Source: Planctomycetota bacterium
GTDB lineage: Bacteria > Planctomycetota > Planctomycetia > Planctomycetales > Planctomycetaceae
Length of the DNA stretch: 64,000 nucleotides
Assembly (NCBI GenBank): GCA_030836185.1
Contig: JAURQH010000050.1
Coordinates: 186,001-250,000, forward strand
Direction: 5' to 3'
Shown here: positions 8,885-13,453 of the stretch, one piece after another
Numbering within the stretch: the stretch's first letter is position 1
Layout of the letters: every line of letters starts with the position of its first letter
Program-made: the position numbers and the translations under genes
The notes under the pieces: model-generated
Databases searched by the model: none
What the model saw: the letters and a program-made list of their open reading frames with translations, nothing else
Told to the model about the DNA's origin: nothing

Positions 8885-8918
8885 GTTCAATTCTCTGGCA
8901 ATGTTCAATTCTCTGGCA
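8885..8918. repeat. 18-bp-period direct repeat at the stop codon of the next gene
   Basis: GTTCAATTCTCTGGCA occurs at 8885-8900 and again at 8903-8918, separated by two bases. On the minus strand this duplicates the last codons and the TGA stop (Pro-Glu-Asn-stop) of the degenerate protease. The first stop is used, so the second copy is untranslated. The rest of 8631-8904 shows no gene. Confidence 0.85.
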
Positions 8919-10038
8919 GCGGAGGAGGTTCGGGGAGGACCACTTCTTTGCGATCCGAGGTGTTCGAGACATATTCGACCTCAGGAAGGATATACATCGG
9001 TAAAGCGACTGCTAAACGTCCTGATTCGAGCTCCTCAATCCGTTCTTTTAATAATGAAACAGGGATCGCATAAGACTCGGTACGACCACCACGAGCAATA
9101 TTTAGCCCAATCACTTCACCGTCCAAATTGAGCAACGGCCCGCCACAGTTGTGGGACGACATCACCGAGTCATGCTGCATCACTCCGATAAAACCAGCCC
9201 TACGATTACTCAACTTTGCCCCCATCCGATTTTGGATCGCCTGCCGATGAAAAGCGTCTTTACCCCAGCGATCAAGTGTCACCTGAAAATTCTTATAGTC
9301 GCTGCCTCGTAAAACCCGCACGAACAATGAATCACCGGGCGTAAATTGCGACAACGCTGAAATCATTAGATCTCGAGTATCGACGACTTTGTCCGAAACC
9401 TGAAGGATCACGTCGCCGGTTCGTAGGCCTGATCGAGAGGCACTGCTGAAGGGCCGGATCGATTGAATTTTGGGCCGGTCTGTGGCGACATCCATCTCAA
9501 TTCCCAACCATGCTTTGCCACGCACTTTCGGAATATTAATCGAACGCACGCTCGACATCCCGATGGCTATGGGGGACTCATCAATTCCGGCAGTCACCAC
9601 CCATCGACCAATGTCGGCCAGATCCTCATTCGCCCACTTGATGGGTACCAGCTTGTCATGTTCGACATCGAGCAAGGCCAGATCGTATTCCCGGTCGGCT
9701 GCCAGAAATTTGGCCCGAACTTCGGTCTCGTCGGAGAATCGGCAGGTAATGTTTGATTGTAACTCACTCGCTTTGGTCAGAACGTGACCTTCATTATCGA
9801 GAACGACTCCCATCGCAACATGCTTGCTTCCGCACCAGATTTCCACGGTCGATTTCCGAACTTCGCTGACCACGGGTTGAAAGGCGGCTCGCAACTTTCG
9901 CCCACCTAATTGCAGTTCCACATCAAGATCTTTGGCCGGAGCAATAGCAGGGCTCAGAGCAAGAATTGATGCCACCAACATGGCCGGTAACAAGAGACGA
10001 TCAGAAAGTCTTGGCGGCTGGGAGAGGTTTTGATTCAT
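8905..10038 (-). CDS. HtrA-like pseudoprotease with a PDZ domain inserted in the protease fold
   Basis: 377 residues with an N-terminal membrane/signal segment (about 14-35). The first trypsin-like barrel (about 58-150) is recognisable, with GVVLDNEGHVLT, but the catalytic His position holds Ser91 (LTKASEL instead of LTAAHVV). The Asp is kept (Asp119, REYDLALL). A PDZ-like domain follows at about 175-255 (WLGIEMD, SGLRTGDVILQVSD). Only then comes the protease Ser loop, where the usual GNSGGPL reads HNCGGPLLNLDGEVIGLNIA, with Cys298 in place of Ser, and the final AIPV strand. The PDZ thus interrupts the second barrel rather than following it. It probably does not cleave peptides in the normal way; a scaffold or binding role in the periplasm is inferred. 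The intact relative lies next upstream on the same strand. Confidence 0.8.
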   Translation of the reverse strand: MNQNLSQPPRLSDRLLLPAMLVASILALSPAIAPAKDLDVELQLGGRKLRAAFQPVVSEVRKSTVEIWCGSKHVAMGVVLDNEGHVLTKASELQSNITCRFSDETEVRAKFLAADREYDLALLDVEHDKLVPIKWANEDLADIGRWVVTAGIDESPIAIGMSSVRSINIPKVRGKAWLGIEMDVATDRPKIQSIRPFSSASRSGLRTGDVILQVSDKVVDTRDLMISALSQFTPGDSLFVRVLRGSDYKNFQVTLDRWGKDAFHRQAIQNRMGAKLSNRRAGFIGVMQHDSVMSSHNCGGPLLNLDGEVIGLNIARGGRTESYAIPVSLLKERIEELESGRLAVALPMYILPEVEYVSNTSDRKEVVLPEPPPLPEN

Positions 10039-10093
10039 AACGGGTTACTCCAGTCGAGTTCTCATAAATACGTTTAGATCGGCACGTCGGGCT

Positions 10094-11146
10094 TCATCGA
10101 ATCCCCCGGTAGGGATCCTTTCTCGCCAAAGTCACTTCCAACTTGATCGTTTTGTTGTTTCGGACAATTTCCACTTCGATGGCTTTATTGGGAGCGTACT
10201 GAGACACGAGTTCCACTAGTTCTCGAAAATTCTTAATTGGTTTGTCATCAAACTTTTTGATGACATCGCGAACACGAACGCCGGCTTTGAAAGCCGGTGA
10301 ATTACCTGAAACTGAGGTAATCGTACAAGGCCCGTCACGATTATAGGGATCCCCGCCCACTCCGAGAAAACCGGCAGGTGAAGAGAGACTCTCCCAGTTT
10401 TCTTCATAGATACCGACGGGAACATGTAGGTTCCAGGAGGTAGAGACACCGATACGGCTATTGATACCAATGACGCGGCCTTTGAGATCGAAAAGAGGTC
10501 CGCCCGAGTCACCGCCAACCAGAGTCGCGTCAGTTCGGATCATGGCGGGAGTGACATTATTGATTCGACCGATACGAATCACGGGAGGCCGACCTTCACG
10601 ACGACCACCGGGATGACCGGTCGCAATGCACCAATCACCGACCTTGTAAGAATCCGGGACCGCCATTGCGCAAAATGGCCATTCTCCCTCTTCAACGATC
10701 CTCAGGATTCCCGCATCAGTTTCGTGATCGGTTCCTAGAGTTTCGGCTCGCGCGAGCGTTCCATCGGGAAACCAGACATTGGCCGCTTGCCCCCGTCTGC
10801 CGATGACATGTGCGGCGGTCAGAATGTAACCATCCTTACTGATGACCACACCACTGCCCTGCGAATTCCCAATCACGACCGCCACTGTGGCGTTCATCAT
10901 ACTCTTACGATGTTTCTGAACCTGATCTTCCAGAGCTTTTAAGTCCTCAATCGACTCAGGGAGTTCCTTATTAAGAACAGAAGCTGGTTCGCTTTCTGTT
11001 GATTTCGCCTCTTTTTGGAGTGCCGGGGCGAGTGCGGACCACGAGACAATCAAAGCAGGCAACAAAGCGAGTTGAATCAACTGCCTGATTGAGATCCGTT
11101 GAGACACTTTCCCAGCCATATTCTCTCCAATGATTAAAAAAACCAC
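10094..11146 (-). CDS. Trypsin-like serine protease with C-terminal PDZ domain (HtrA/DegP-like)
   Basis: Exported protease. A signal sequence occupies the N-terminus (hydrophobic stretch about 23-44). The protease domain runs from about 85 to 245 with an intact triad: His113 (ILTAAHVIG), Asp144 (HETDAGIL) and Ser214 (GGDSGGPLFD). One PDZ domain follows at about 255-345 (GFLGVGG, AFKAGVRVRDVIKKFDD). An ATG at 11119 preceded by GGAGAG is an equally plausible start, giving a clean signal peptide and shortening the protein by nine residues. Role by family: periplasmic protein quality control. It is 55 bases upstream of the degenerate paralogue on the same strand, so the two are likely cotranscribed. 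Confidence 0.88.
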   Translation of the reverse strand: MVFLIIGENMAGKVSQRISIRQLIQLALLPALIVSWSALAPALQKEAKSTESEPASVLNKELPESIEDLKALEDQVQKHRKSMMNATVAVVIGNSQGSGVVISKDGYILTAAHVIGRRGQAANVWFPDGTLARAETLGTDHETDAGILRIVEEGEWPFCAMAVPDSYKVGDWCIATGHPGGRREGRPPVIRIGRINNVTPAMIRTDATLVGGDSGGPLFDLKGRVIGINSRIGVSTSWNLHVPVGIYEENWESLSSPAGFLGVGGDPYNRDGPCTITSVSGNSPAFKAGVRVRDVIKKFDDKPIKNFRELVELVSQYAPNKAIEVEIVRNNKTIKLEVTLARKDPYRGIR

Positions 11147-11508
11147 AGGTATGCTTCACTTATCGTCAGGACAAACCTATTCAAAGTACCGCATTTGAAG
11201 GGTCATAAACAACCCCCGAGATAGAATTTTTGACGCAACTCTATTAGGAGAATAACCTTACGATTTTGTAACGTAACTAAAAACGAACTCGTCTTTCCTT
11301 ACGGATGATTCCGAACAGGCAAGATGAGTTCCAATAATGGTCGGCTATCAGGAATTACCCCCTCTCAAATCTCCCTATGCAGTATTTGGAACTGATGCTA
11401 GAATTCTCGGCCTAACCGTGAAGCATGACGCAATCGGTTATTATTAAACAACTTACTGCCTGATTGACACGCTTGCTGAGACCACATTCAGCGGGAAGGA
11501 TGCCGCCT
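11147..11508. other. Intergenic region between divergent genes
   Basis: About 360 bases separate the minus-strand protease from the plus-strand TIGR03009-like gene. I see no open frame worth calling. The region is AT-richer than its flanks and must hold the two divergent promoters, but no pair of boxes is convincing enough to mark. Confidence 0.5.
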
Positions 11509-12699
11509 GTGATCATTCTGACAAAATTTCGCAACTGCGTTTTGTTCTCGATCTTCGCCCTGATAACGCTCTGTTTGCCCCGAATTTCCTCGGGCCAACC
11601 CGGCACTTTGGAGATTCGTGATTCCGATGTGCAACGGAACCGTGAATTCAATGAAGGACTGGCTCCCGTTGCGCGCCAGCAGATAAATCCTCAACTGTGG
11701 CAGATCCTGAAGGATTGGGAGCAAACCACCAAAGTCTACAAAAAACTGTCGGGGACACATCGCCGTTTTGTGTACGACTCTGTGTTTCAGGTCGAAAAAC
11801 GAGCCGATGGCTCTTTCTACTACGAGGCTCCCGACAAGGGACGAATCGATATTGAGGAAGTGAAAATCCCGTCCGGGGCCAAAAGCCAAAAGCTGAATAA
11901 GCAAGGCAAGCCTTATTCACTGCAAAGCGATATTCCAGAAATCTGGATTTGTGACGGCAAGAGTATCGCTCAAGCGATTGTGCCTCAAAAACAGTACCAG
12001 GTTCACAATATCCCCGCTCAGGACCAGGGGATCAACATCATGGATGGCCCCTTGCCGTTCCTGTTTGGATTACCGGCCGACAAGGCTGTTGAACGCTATC
12101 ACTTTGAACTGCTCCCACAAACCGATCAAAAGATGGTCTGGTTAAAAGTCTTACCGAAACGAAAACAGGATGCGGCAAACTGGCGCGAAGCCGAAGTGAT
12201 TTTGGATCGCAAGAGTTATCTCCCGGTCGCAGTGAAATTGATCAACCCACCGGGAACAACCGAGACGGTTTATAGCTTCAAGGATCTCAAGGCGAATGAG
12301 AACGTCATTATCTCTTTCATTAAAGGAGATCGAGATCCCTTCAACATCGCGAAAGTTCTCAATGGATACAAAGAGATCAAGCAGGCACAAAACGGACCGG
12401 GGATGGGACCGGGGCAAGCTCCACCGAGAGTCCAACCCCAACAACCAAAATCTCCCGTTGCCGGACAGCCAAAACAACTGACTATGCCAAGAGTGGTGAA
12501 TTACCCTTGGAAAGACGTGCAAAAACTGTTTCAGGATCGTGGATTTGAAGTCGAATTCCGTAAAGCGGGGCCTGCCCCCGAGGAAGAACTGGTCTTCAAA
12601 GTCGCCACACAGGAACCGGTTGCTGGAGCCGCTTTGAAGTCGGGCCAGAAGGTGATCTTCTTTCTCTACGAAGAAGTTAAAGCCGCTTCACGGCCTTAG
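11509..12699 (+). CDS. TIGR03009-type planctomycete exported protein with a C-terminal PASTA-like domain
   Basis: Secreted or membrane-anchored protein of about 396 residues. A hydrophobic signal (FSIFALITLCLP) is followed by a Pro-rich stretch and the planctomycete domain TIGR03009 (about 55-290: LKDWEQTTKVYKKLSGTHRRF, later IWICDGKSIAQ and LPFLFGLPADKA). The fold resembles outer-membrane lipoprotein carrier proteins (LolA/RseB-like), which is family knowledge rather than something proven here. After a Pro/Gln-rich linker comes a PASTA-like module (about 325-392: MPRVVNYPWKDVQKLFQDRG, then QEPVAGAALKSGQ). I chose the GTG at 11509, with AAGG nine bases upstream; an ATG at 11500 and a TTG at 11464 are alternatives. 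The stop codons of this gene and the next, convergent gene overlap. Confidence 0.7.
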   Translation: MIILTKFRNCVLFSIFALITLCLPRISSGQPGTLEIRDSDVQRNREFNEGLAPVARQQINPQLWQILKDWEQTTKVYKKLSGTHRRFVYDSVFQVEKRADGSFYYEAPDKGRIDIEEVKIPSGAKSQKLNKQGKPYSLQSDIPEIWICDGKSIAQAIVPQKQYQVHNIPAQDQGINIMDGPLPFLFGLPADKAVERYHFELLPQTDQKMVWLKVLPKRKQDAANWREAEVILDRKSYLPVAVKLINPPGTTETVYSFKDLKANENVIISFIKGDRDPFNIAKVLNGYKEIKQAQNGPGMGPGQAPPRVQPQQPKSPVAGQPKQLTMPRVVNYPWKDVQKLFQDRGFEVEFRKAGPAPEEELVFKVATQEPVAGAALKSGQKVIFFLYEEVKAASRP

Positions 12700-13259
12700 T
12701 CGCTCCCTCTGCGTTGGCTGATGGAGTCCACCTTTGTCAACTCCACATAATCGGGACGATCAGCGGATGTTTTGCAGAAGTGAGACTTCAGCACCTCACC
12801 ACCTTCAATCAGGAAGACTCCCCCCAATTGAGAGACATCTCCTTGTGGCATACCGGGTGAATGTCCTTCCCACAGCGTACAGACGGCTCCTTTGAGCCAG
12901 ACGGCTGGCCCCAGATACTCGCTCAGACGTCCCTTTTTGATCTCCAACAGTGTATATAGCTCTTGATCAGGATCGGGGAGAGCTTCCAGTTCATCCAGGC
13001 CATAACGGGCGAAGAAGCTCTTTGCCTGATCCCTATCATCCATCATATGGACGAGCACAATCTTTGCTCCACTCGATTCGATCTCTGCACGGGCTGCCGC
13101 CACATCTCCCAGTGTCTGTTTGCAGAAAGGGCAACCGGAATGCCTGAGAAAGACCAGTAACCTCCGACCTGGCTGATTGAGCAGGTCAAACTTTTCTGGA
13201 AATGGCTGATTCAACACGGAATTTCCCCGAACCGAGGTCGATGGACTTCTCTCTACCAT
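12696..13259 (-). CDS. Peroxiredoxin-like (AhpC/TSA, SelL-related) thioredoxin-fold protein
   Basis: 187-residue thioredoxin-fold protein with a C43-P-F-C46 motif right after the first strand (LLVFLRHSGCPFC), then helix KQTLGDVAAARAEIE. This arrangement is typical of the AhpC/TSA-like branch that includes selenoprotein SelL, in which both Cys may be Sec; here both are ordinary Cys codons. It probably acts as a thiol oxidoreductase or peroxidase in the cytoplasm, since no signal peptide is visible. The substrate is unknown. It overlaps the convergent TIGR03009 gene by its stop codon. Upstream, 13260-13380 is a short gap before the tRNA. Confidence 0.75.
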   Translation of the reverse strand: MVERSPSTSVRGNSVLNQPFPEKFDLLNQPGRRLLVFLRHSGCPFCKQTLGDVAAARAEIESSGAKIVLVHMMDDRDQAKSFFARYGLDELEALPDPDQELYTLLEIKKGRLSEYLGPAVWLKGAVCTLWEGHSPGMPQGDVSQLGGVFLIEGGEVLKSHFCKTSADRPDYVELTKVDSISQRRGSD

Positions 13260-13380: not shown

Positions 13381-13453
13381 GCGGGTGTAGCTCAGTGGCT
13401 AGAGCGTCTGGTTGCCATCCAGAAGGCCGGGGGTTCGACTCCCCTCACCCGCT
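13381..13453 (+). tRNA. tRNA-Gly (anticodon GCC)
   Basis: 73-nt cloverleaf without encoded CCA. Acceptor stem GCGGGTG pairs with CACCCGC, with discriminator T at 13453. The D arm is GCTC/GAGC, the anticodon stem TCTGG/CCAGA with loop TTGCCAT (anticodon GCC), and the T arm GGGGG-TTCGACT-CCCCT with one G-U pair. A T-rich stretch follows immediately and may end transcription. Confidence 0.95.

Follow-up and report, generated by a model that had tools for sequence, protein, structure and literature searches.

A planctomycete contig (Planctomycetota bacterium, GenBank assembly GCA_030836185.1, contig JAURQH010000050.1, positions 186,001 to 250,000) carries, directly downstream of an HtrA protease gene, the gene for a second HtrA-like protein that has a degenerate catalytic site and a PDZ domain inside the protease fold. 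This whole stretch of 64,000 nucleotides is called the window here. Why is such a protein kept beside a protease with intact catalytic residues, and what might it do there? Based on domain searches, a structure model, 80 homologous loci and surveys of related genomes, we propose that the pseudoprotease, itself probably exported, is likely to be a dedicated non-catalytic partner of the HtrA encoded just upstream.

The features of the two genes are given in Table 1. By our reading, a GGAG sequence is located 9 nt upstream of the pseudoprotease ATG. The upstream open reading frame encodes, according to Pfam, an HtrA with its domains in the ordinary order.

Table 1. Features of the protease pair in window coordinates; the 81 rows (A3) are the window protein and its 80 homologues
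Feature	Coordinates	Strand	Details and basis
Pseudoprotease gene	8905..10038	-	377 aa, ATG start; ORF, domains, residues, alignment with 80 homologues
Probable signal peptide, hydrophobic N-terminus (residues 1-36)	9931..10038	-	Own sequence reading
First barrel and beginning of the second (residues 45-171)	9526..9906	-	Pfam, phmmer, model
Nested PDZ domain (residues 172-258)	9265..9525	-	PDZ_2 178-255; PDZ_2 in 81/81 A3 rows
Rest of second barrel, Ser-site loop, C-terminal helix (residues 276-342)	9013..9213	-	phmmer, model
Ser91 at catalytic His position	9766..9768	-	S in 78/81, His in 0/81
Asp119, retained catalytic Asp	9682..9684	-	D in 80/81
Cys298 at nucleophile position	9145..9147	-	C in 78/81, else A, V, M
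Intergenic gap, partner stop to pseudoprotease start, 55 nt	10039..10093	-	
Active HtrA partner with triad H113/D144/S214; C-terminal PDZ after the barrel	10094..11146	-	Triad in 78/78

In the pseudoprotease, Pfam places Trypsin_2 at residues 76-159, covering only positions 2-98 of the 144 in the profile, then PDZ_2 at 178-255, and finally a Trypsin match at 297-328 that falls below the cut-off. The PDZ domain is not C-terminal to a complete barrel; it lies between barrel parts at 76-159 and at about 283-337. Searches of the PDB with phmmer recovered the same pieces in an order foreign to HtrA, namely barrel start, PDZ and barrel end: residues 74-152, 272-338 and 198-282 matched residues 97-177, 193-262 and 304-387, respectively, of the DegP-like chain 22kg, and residues 75-176 and 283-335 matched 58-166 and 168-224 of T. 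maritima HtrA (1l1j). The two latter parts adjoin, and therefore the PDZ insert sits in one loop. TIGR02037 matches the protein in three stretches. Circular permutation is ruled out, the barrel halves being in normal order with only the PDZ nested (phmmer, VIA-align). A PDZ_2 match is present in all 81 dead proteins, a set gathered with a profile that includes the PDZ.

An AlphaFold2 model built from 81 sequences has a mean pLDDT of 86.6 and a pTM of 0.79, and all ten-residue blocks from 51 to 340 have a pLDDT of at least 87, except residues 261-270 (75). In this model the two flanks of the PDZ domain form one complete two-barrel HtrA fold. Among the 50 matches listed, VIA-align superposed 169-189 residues on HtrA entries (Z 22.4-24.3, rmsd 2.0-4.3 Å), and in most of the alignments only the protease domain of the entry is covered, by about 48-342 of the model, as with AlgW (51-342 on 53-276). 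The 50 Foldseek matches listed were all HtrA-type chains, with whole-model TM scores of 0.23-0.28; such values would be expected if the barrel matched and the PDZ sat elsewhere. The first-pass annotation, made from the letters of the window, had claimed that the PDZ interrupts the protease fold and that the segment after it is the second half of the barrel. The first claim agrees with the domain order in Pfam and phmmer and with the closure of the two flanks in the model, and the second is borne out by the AlphaFold model and VIA-align together.

In Deg5, loop L3 is given as residues 241-251 and the catalytic Ser as 266 (PMC3640471), which places L3 25 to 15 residues before the Ser; counted back from Cys298, the insert ends there. 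L3 is described as a sensor loop between the protease and PDZ domains (PMC5003398). From these positions, the PDZ insert would occupy loop L3 of HtrA. The LG pair of the nested PDZ, which we take to be its carboxylate-binding loop, is invariant in a 16-row alignment (L139 and G140 there), and the Gly (179) is invariant in all 81 rows; this conservation is in keeping with peptide binding by the nested PDZ.

The state of the catalytic site was read from the alignment of the window protein with all 80 kept loci. The three rows without Ser at the catalytic His position have Asp, Asn and Thr, respectively, and no row has Ser at the nucleophile position, where the exceptions to Cys are single cases of Ala, Val and Met. 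Gly is found in 0 of the 81 rows at position 296, the oxyanion Gly site of active HtrAs. Other positions are strongly conserved: Asp290 in 81/81, and His289 and Lys89 in 80/81 each. Asn313, Arg316 and Arg319 are present in every row, an invariance that follows from their position within the motif used to find the loci; in A1, a set of 28 rows gathered without that motif, the N, A and R of the NIAR motif after the Ser site are likewise invariant (28/28). An earlier set of 30 gave Ser 28 times and Thr and Asn once each in the His column, and Cys in all 29 readable rows of the Ser column. A further 21 domains, most of them from fusions, have Ser (20) or Asn (one) in the His column and Cys (15), Val (five) or Ala (one) in the Ser column; His289 and Arg316 are kept in 15 and 17 of them, respectively. 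Thus the reading of the site first made in the window protein alone (Ser91, Cys298 and a kept Asp119) extends to the family, and a search for homologues with intact His and Ser found none among the 81 rows.

Compared with L018, the closest relative available (86% identity), the pseudoprotease has a dN/dS of 0.10-0.11 over 297 codons and the partner 0.11-0.13 over 350 codons; against L066, silent sites proved saturated. A ratio of about 0.10, together with the open frames, rules out a decaying pseudogene, and sequencing error or chance is ruled out by the recurrence of this dead site across the 81 aligned sequences. Judged from these sequences, the dead site is a family trait under constraint, and the gene product probably cannot cut proteins.

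The family is widespread. In the window's own family, at least 83 of 150 sampled genomes, from 36 of 58 genera, have the pseudoprotease at E 1e-10 or better, a lower bound because the score was computed for 13 candidates in each genome. Across the phylum, 392 genomes with a completeness of 80% or more were searched, and 67 of them, in 45 of 264 genera, match the 16-row profile at E 1e-30, with five candidates scored and the weakest matches covering only part of the profile. Genome contigs yielded 246 stretches matching one motif, of which 245 encode relatives; the best 80 of the 245 were kept, and loci found in this way are uninformative on members without the motif. The same domain order, sought in other planctomycetes, recurs in that PDZ_2 is found in all 80 fetched loci, and the dead site is shared. 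The record titles of these loci are mostly of Planctomycetota lineages, including Gimesia (L129 and L136, which hold the pair), and several metagenome-assembled genomes are titled Verrucomicrobia or kin. The records L082, L087, L108, L114 and L142-L145, titled Verrucomicrobia/Verrucomicrobiales, Akkermansia, Pedosphaera or Kuenenia, hold the pair, and may represent transfer, a wider distribution or mislabelled bins. PDZ proteins are reported to occur in multiple copies in planctomycete genomes, according to an excerpt of PMC6411480.

In 69 of the 80 loci the partner gene immediately precedes the pseudoprotease gene on the same strand, and in eight the two are fused into one chain; the median gap between partner and pseudoprotease, measured to the first Met, is 57 nt in 70 separate pairs. 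The triad H113, D144 and S214 is kept in all 78 partners aligned. The three remaining loci (L085, L094 and L109) have no local partner, and in each case it appears on another contig of the inferred genome (G115, G085 and G122, respectively); in G115 a partner end is also seen at a contig edge (L031). No other cluster of neighbouring genes (ORFs of at least 110 aa, flanks up to 4 kb) occurs in more than 11 of the 81 loci, apart from reverse-strand readings, which we take to derive from the protease pair itself; a larger conserved operon was rejected on these grounds.

We then consider genomes rather than loci. A search for the partner in 18 chosen genomes included seven in which it is not beside the pseudoprotease but elsewhere, and it was found in 7/7, at E 1e-53 to 1e-76 (G004, G060, G085, G011 and G063, judged by 1.5-kb flanks; G122, by a short flank; and G103, by different contigs only). 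In six of the 18 no pseudoprotease had been found in the family survey, and their best partner matches were 5.3e-23 in one, 3.7e-21 in one and none in four. Among the 150 family genomes, 74 have both proteins, nine only the pseudoprotease, one only the partner and 66 neither, at a partner cut-off of E 1e-30 that was chosen after the results were seen and excludes four matches in the range 1e-25 to 1e-30 (G034, G049, G068 and G079); at 1e-25 the numbers are 75, eight, four and 63. When the 31 genomes assigned to the fusion-sized class are excluded (G099, whose ORF is cut, was assigned by kinship), they are 48, four, one and 66 at 1e-30. Long ORFs of fusion size occur in five of the nine pseudoprotease-only genomes; the remaining four are fragments or come from fragmented or incomplete assemblies. 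Twelve partner matches at 1e-30 contain one or two stops inside the matched stretch; in G038, G096 and G149 the open frame spans most of the partner profile, and the stop is therefore near the N-terminus. These counts overstate independence, given the kinship among the 150 genomes, and the correlation between the distances of the two families (r 0.76, 0/1000 permutations) is one that shared descent would also give. Three findings speak for the earlier suggestion that the pseudoprotease serves its active neighbour: the upstream adjacency or fusion seen in 77 of the 80 loci, the 7/7 non-adjacent partners and the 150-genome table.

The natural fusions appear to come in two architectures. In each of the eight fusions taken from named records, whose tails were left out of the scan, a single PDZ region is seen, inside the dead half; the fusions L046 and L047 have two PDZ regions each. 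The five fusions included in the tree form one clade within the dead family (100/98), so that at least two fusion events are likely. PDZ_2 was found in 69 of 78 partners; the nine partners without it are presumably the eight fused rows, cut before the nested PDZ, and L084. In the latter (L084:1318-4737), a PDZ is retained in the dead protein but not matched in the partner; each of the two ends in a C-terminal PPC-type domain, which in the dead protein scores 25.3 bits, slightly below the cut-off of 25.9. In 20 further fused-type ORFs (two separate, non-fused ORFs being left out), the partner part reads H/D/S in 16, H/E/S in one, T/D/A in one (L064) and is unreadable at Ser in two. Three fused proteins, L060 (837 aa), L061 (1188 aa) and L063 (804 aa), contain three barrel-like regions, of which, by reading, the front one is degenerate in L060, the middle one keeps His and Asp, and the dead barrel with the nested PDZ is last; L060 has three Trypsin_2 stretches. 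A model of the natural fusion L100, made from 28 rows, has a pLDDT of 86.5 and a pTM of 0.55, too low for the relative position of its barrels to be relied on; VIA-align rows of the fused chain that run to about residue 426 have an rmsd of 14-17 Å.

A barrel tree was made from 22 picked rows per family plus six other proteins of the window's genome. The dead and active families each form a single clade (100/98 and 100/100), and the dead family joins L003 at 99/94 on long branches, a grouping that is possibly due to long-branch attraction. The tree does not separate the deeper order of the active family, other HtrAs and the dead family, and support in a PDZ tree is too weak to place the source of the nested PDZ. 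With separate clades, and with L003 nearer the dead family, a recent tandem duplication of the neighbour is unsupported; as L003 falls between the two families, a simple recent tandem duplication with retention of the oligomer interface does not account for the pseudoprotease. The first-pass annotation had called the upstream protein an adjacent paralogue with a full triad in ordinary order; its triad and order stand, and 'paralogue' applies only in a broad sense. L003:1258-3264 (contig C46) is itself a second degenerate HtrA of the same genome, 669 aa long, with Trypsin_2 at 83-212, NYGG in place of NSGG, no TAAH motif, two PDZ stretches and an esterase/DLH-like domain.

Around the pair, a scan of the window for promoters and terminators gave one promoter-like and three terminator-like sites, no more than in shuffled sequences. 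Rfam at gathering cut-offs detected only a tRNA at 13381-13453, and the three tandem repeats are short and lie outside the protease pair. A planctomycete protein resembling TIGR03009 (60.8 bits, cut-off 90.5) is encoded divergently from the pair at 11464-12699 (+), and a SelL-related redox protein (NF040769, 131.4 bits, cut-off 120) at 12696-13259 (-).

HtrA proteases are known to be homotrimers that are switched by their own PDZ domains. The best reading of our data is that the pseudoprotease is a subunit that regulates the upstream HtrA or feeds substrates to it. Both proteins would be exported to the same compartment, where, as we are somewhat inclined to believe, the dead barrel forms a mixed complex with active barrels. 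The nested PDZ may bind damaged or signal proteins by their C termini, and, since it replaces L3, the described sensor loop of HtrA, ligand binding might switch the active neighbour or deliver substrate to it. We infer both the physical binding of the partner and the direction of regulation, and judge activation or substrate delivery likelier than inhibition. In its most specific form, which we put forward only tentatively, this would be a mixed active/dead HtrA oligomer in which the dead PDZ in L3 is a ligand sensor that switches or feeds the active subunit in trans, and is in some lineages the only PDZ left.

The complete fold of the model and the strong linkage to an active protease would also suit a pure scaffold or chaperone, in which the dead barrel sets the oligomer size or holds unfolded protein without any switching, and the inactive domain of plant Deg7 is reported to mediate trimerization (PMC3473262, in excerpt). 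However, a PDZ present in 81/81 rows (gathered with a PDZ-containing profile) and fixed in one loop suggests a ligand-dependent role, and we consider a pure scaffold unlikely. A dead barrel could instead compete for substrates or cap the active trimer, as decoys and inhibitors are a common role of dead paralogues, and the NIAR motif kept after the Ser site (N, A and R in 28/28) is compatible with it; but fusion in 8/80 and adjacency in 69/80 loci point to a fixed stoichiometry, which is commoner among subunits than among adjustable inhibitors, and a decoy or inhibitor role seems quite improbable.

Whether the protein is dead at all may also be questioned, as Cys298 could be a nucleophile served by another base: Cys, His289 and Asp119 are kept in 78, 80 and 80 of the 81 rows. 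Against this stand the lack of a base-site His and of an oxyanion Gly in 81/81, and the loss of His289 in six of the 21 further domains. Moreover, some members lack the Cys, with Ala, Val or Met in three of the 81 rows and Val or Ala in six of those 21, a loss that speaks against concealed cysteine protease activity, which we regard as very improbable. The reading as a non-catalytic subunit of the neighbouring HtrA is preferred. If it is true, a widespread dead HtrA that accompanies one active HtrA and has a PDZ in the sensing loop would be a natural experiment on HtrA allostery; the pair offers a concrete target for reconstitution and the natural fusions targets for structure determination, and the pair marks a likely protein-quality-control device of planctomycetes.

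Neither a PDZ nested in an HtrA barrel nor a planctomycete HtrA pseudoprotease was found in the literature searched, which excludes most subscription journals. An HtrA-family protein of V. cholerae has been modelled with an atypical site, with no nested PDZ according to the abstract (PMC3575494). A regulatory PDZ inserted into a protease domain is described for the S41 proteases Prc/Tsp and CtpA/B (PMC6686036, in excerpt), but these have another fold and are active enzymes, whereas the host domain here is Trypsin_2. In the trypanosome AdoMetDC prozyme, a dead paralogue is reported to activate its active partner as a heterodimer (PMC5201418, in excerpt); the enzyme is unrelated and serves as an analogy only.

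Deg7 combines an active and an inactive HtrA domain in one chain, the inactive one reportedly for trimerization, in the order PD-PDZ-PDZ-PDia-PDZ-PDZ, with the PDZ domains after the barrels and none nested in the order given in the excerpt (PMC3473262). In our family, by contrast, separate genes are the rule (two ORFs in the window) and both barrels share a chain in 8/80 loci; PDZ pairs of the Deg7 type after each barrel were not found in the pseudoprotease or the scanned fusions. The pair also resembles MamO and MamE, the HtrA pseudoprotease and protease of magnetosomes, where a degenerate HtrA barrel and an active HtrA work in one pathway. MamO is reported to promote MamE-dependent proteolysis non-catalytically and to need its own TauE transporter domain, and the excerpt states that no MamE-MamO contact was detected (PMC4794232). 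The pseudoprotease has no Pfam match to TauE at E up to 1 and scores 28.2 bits on the NCBIfam MamO model (cut-off 800); it also differs from MamO in the position of its PDZ, within the barrel, and in being encoded mostly next to its partner or fused with it. With DegP, DegQ and DegS it has the barrel fold (Z 22-24) and the Pfam family of its PDZ in common, but its triad has been lost and its PDZ is located inside the barrel, not after it.
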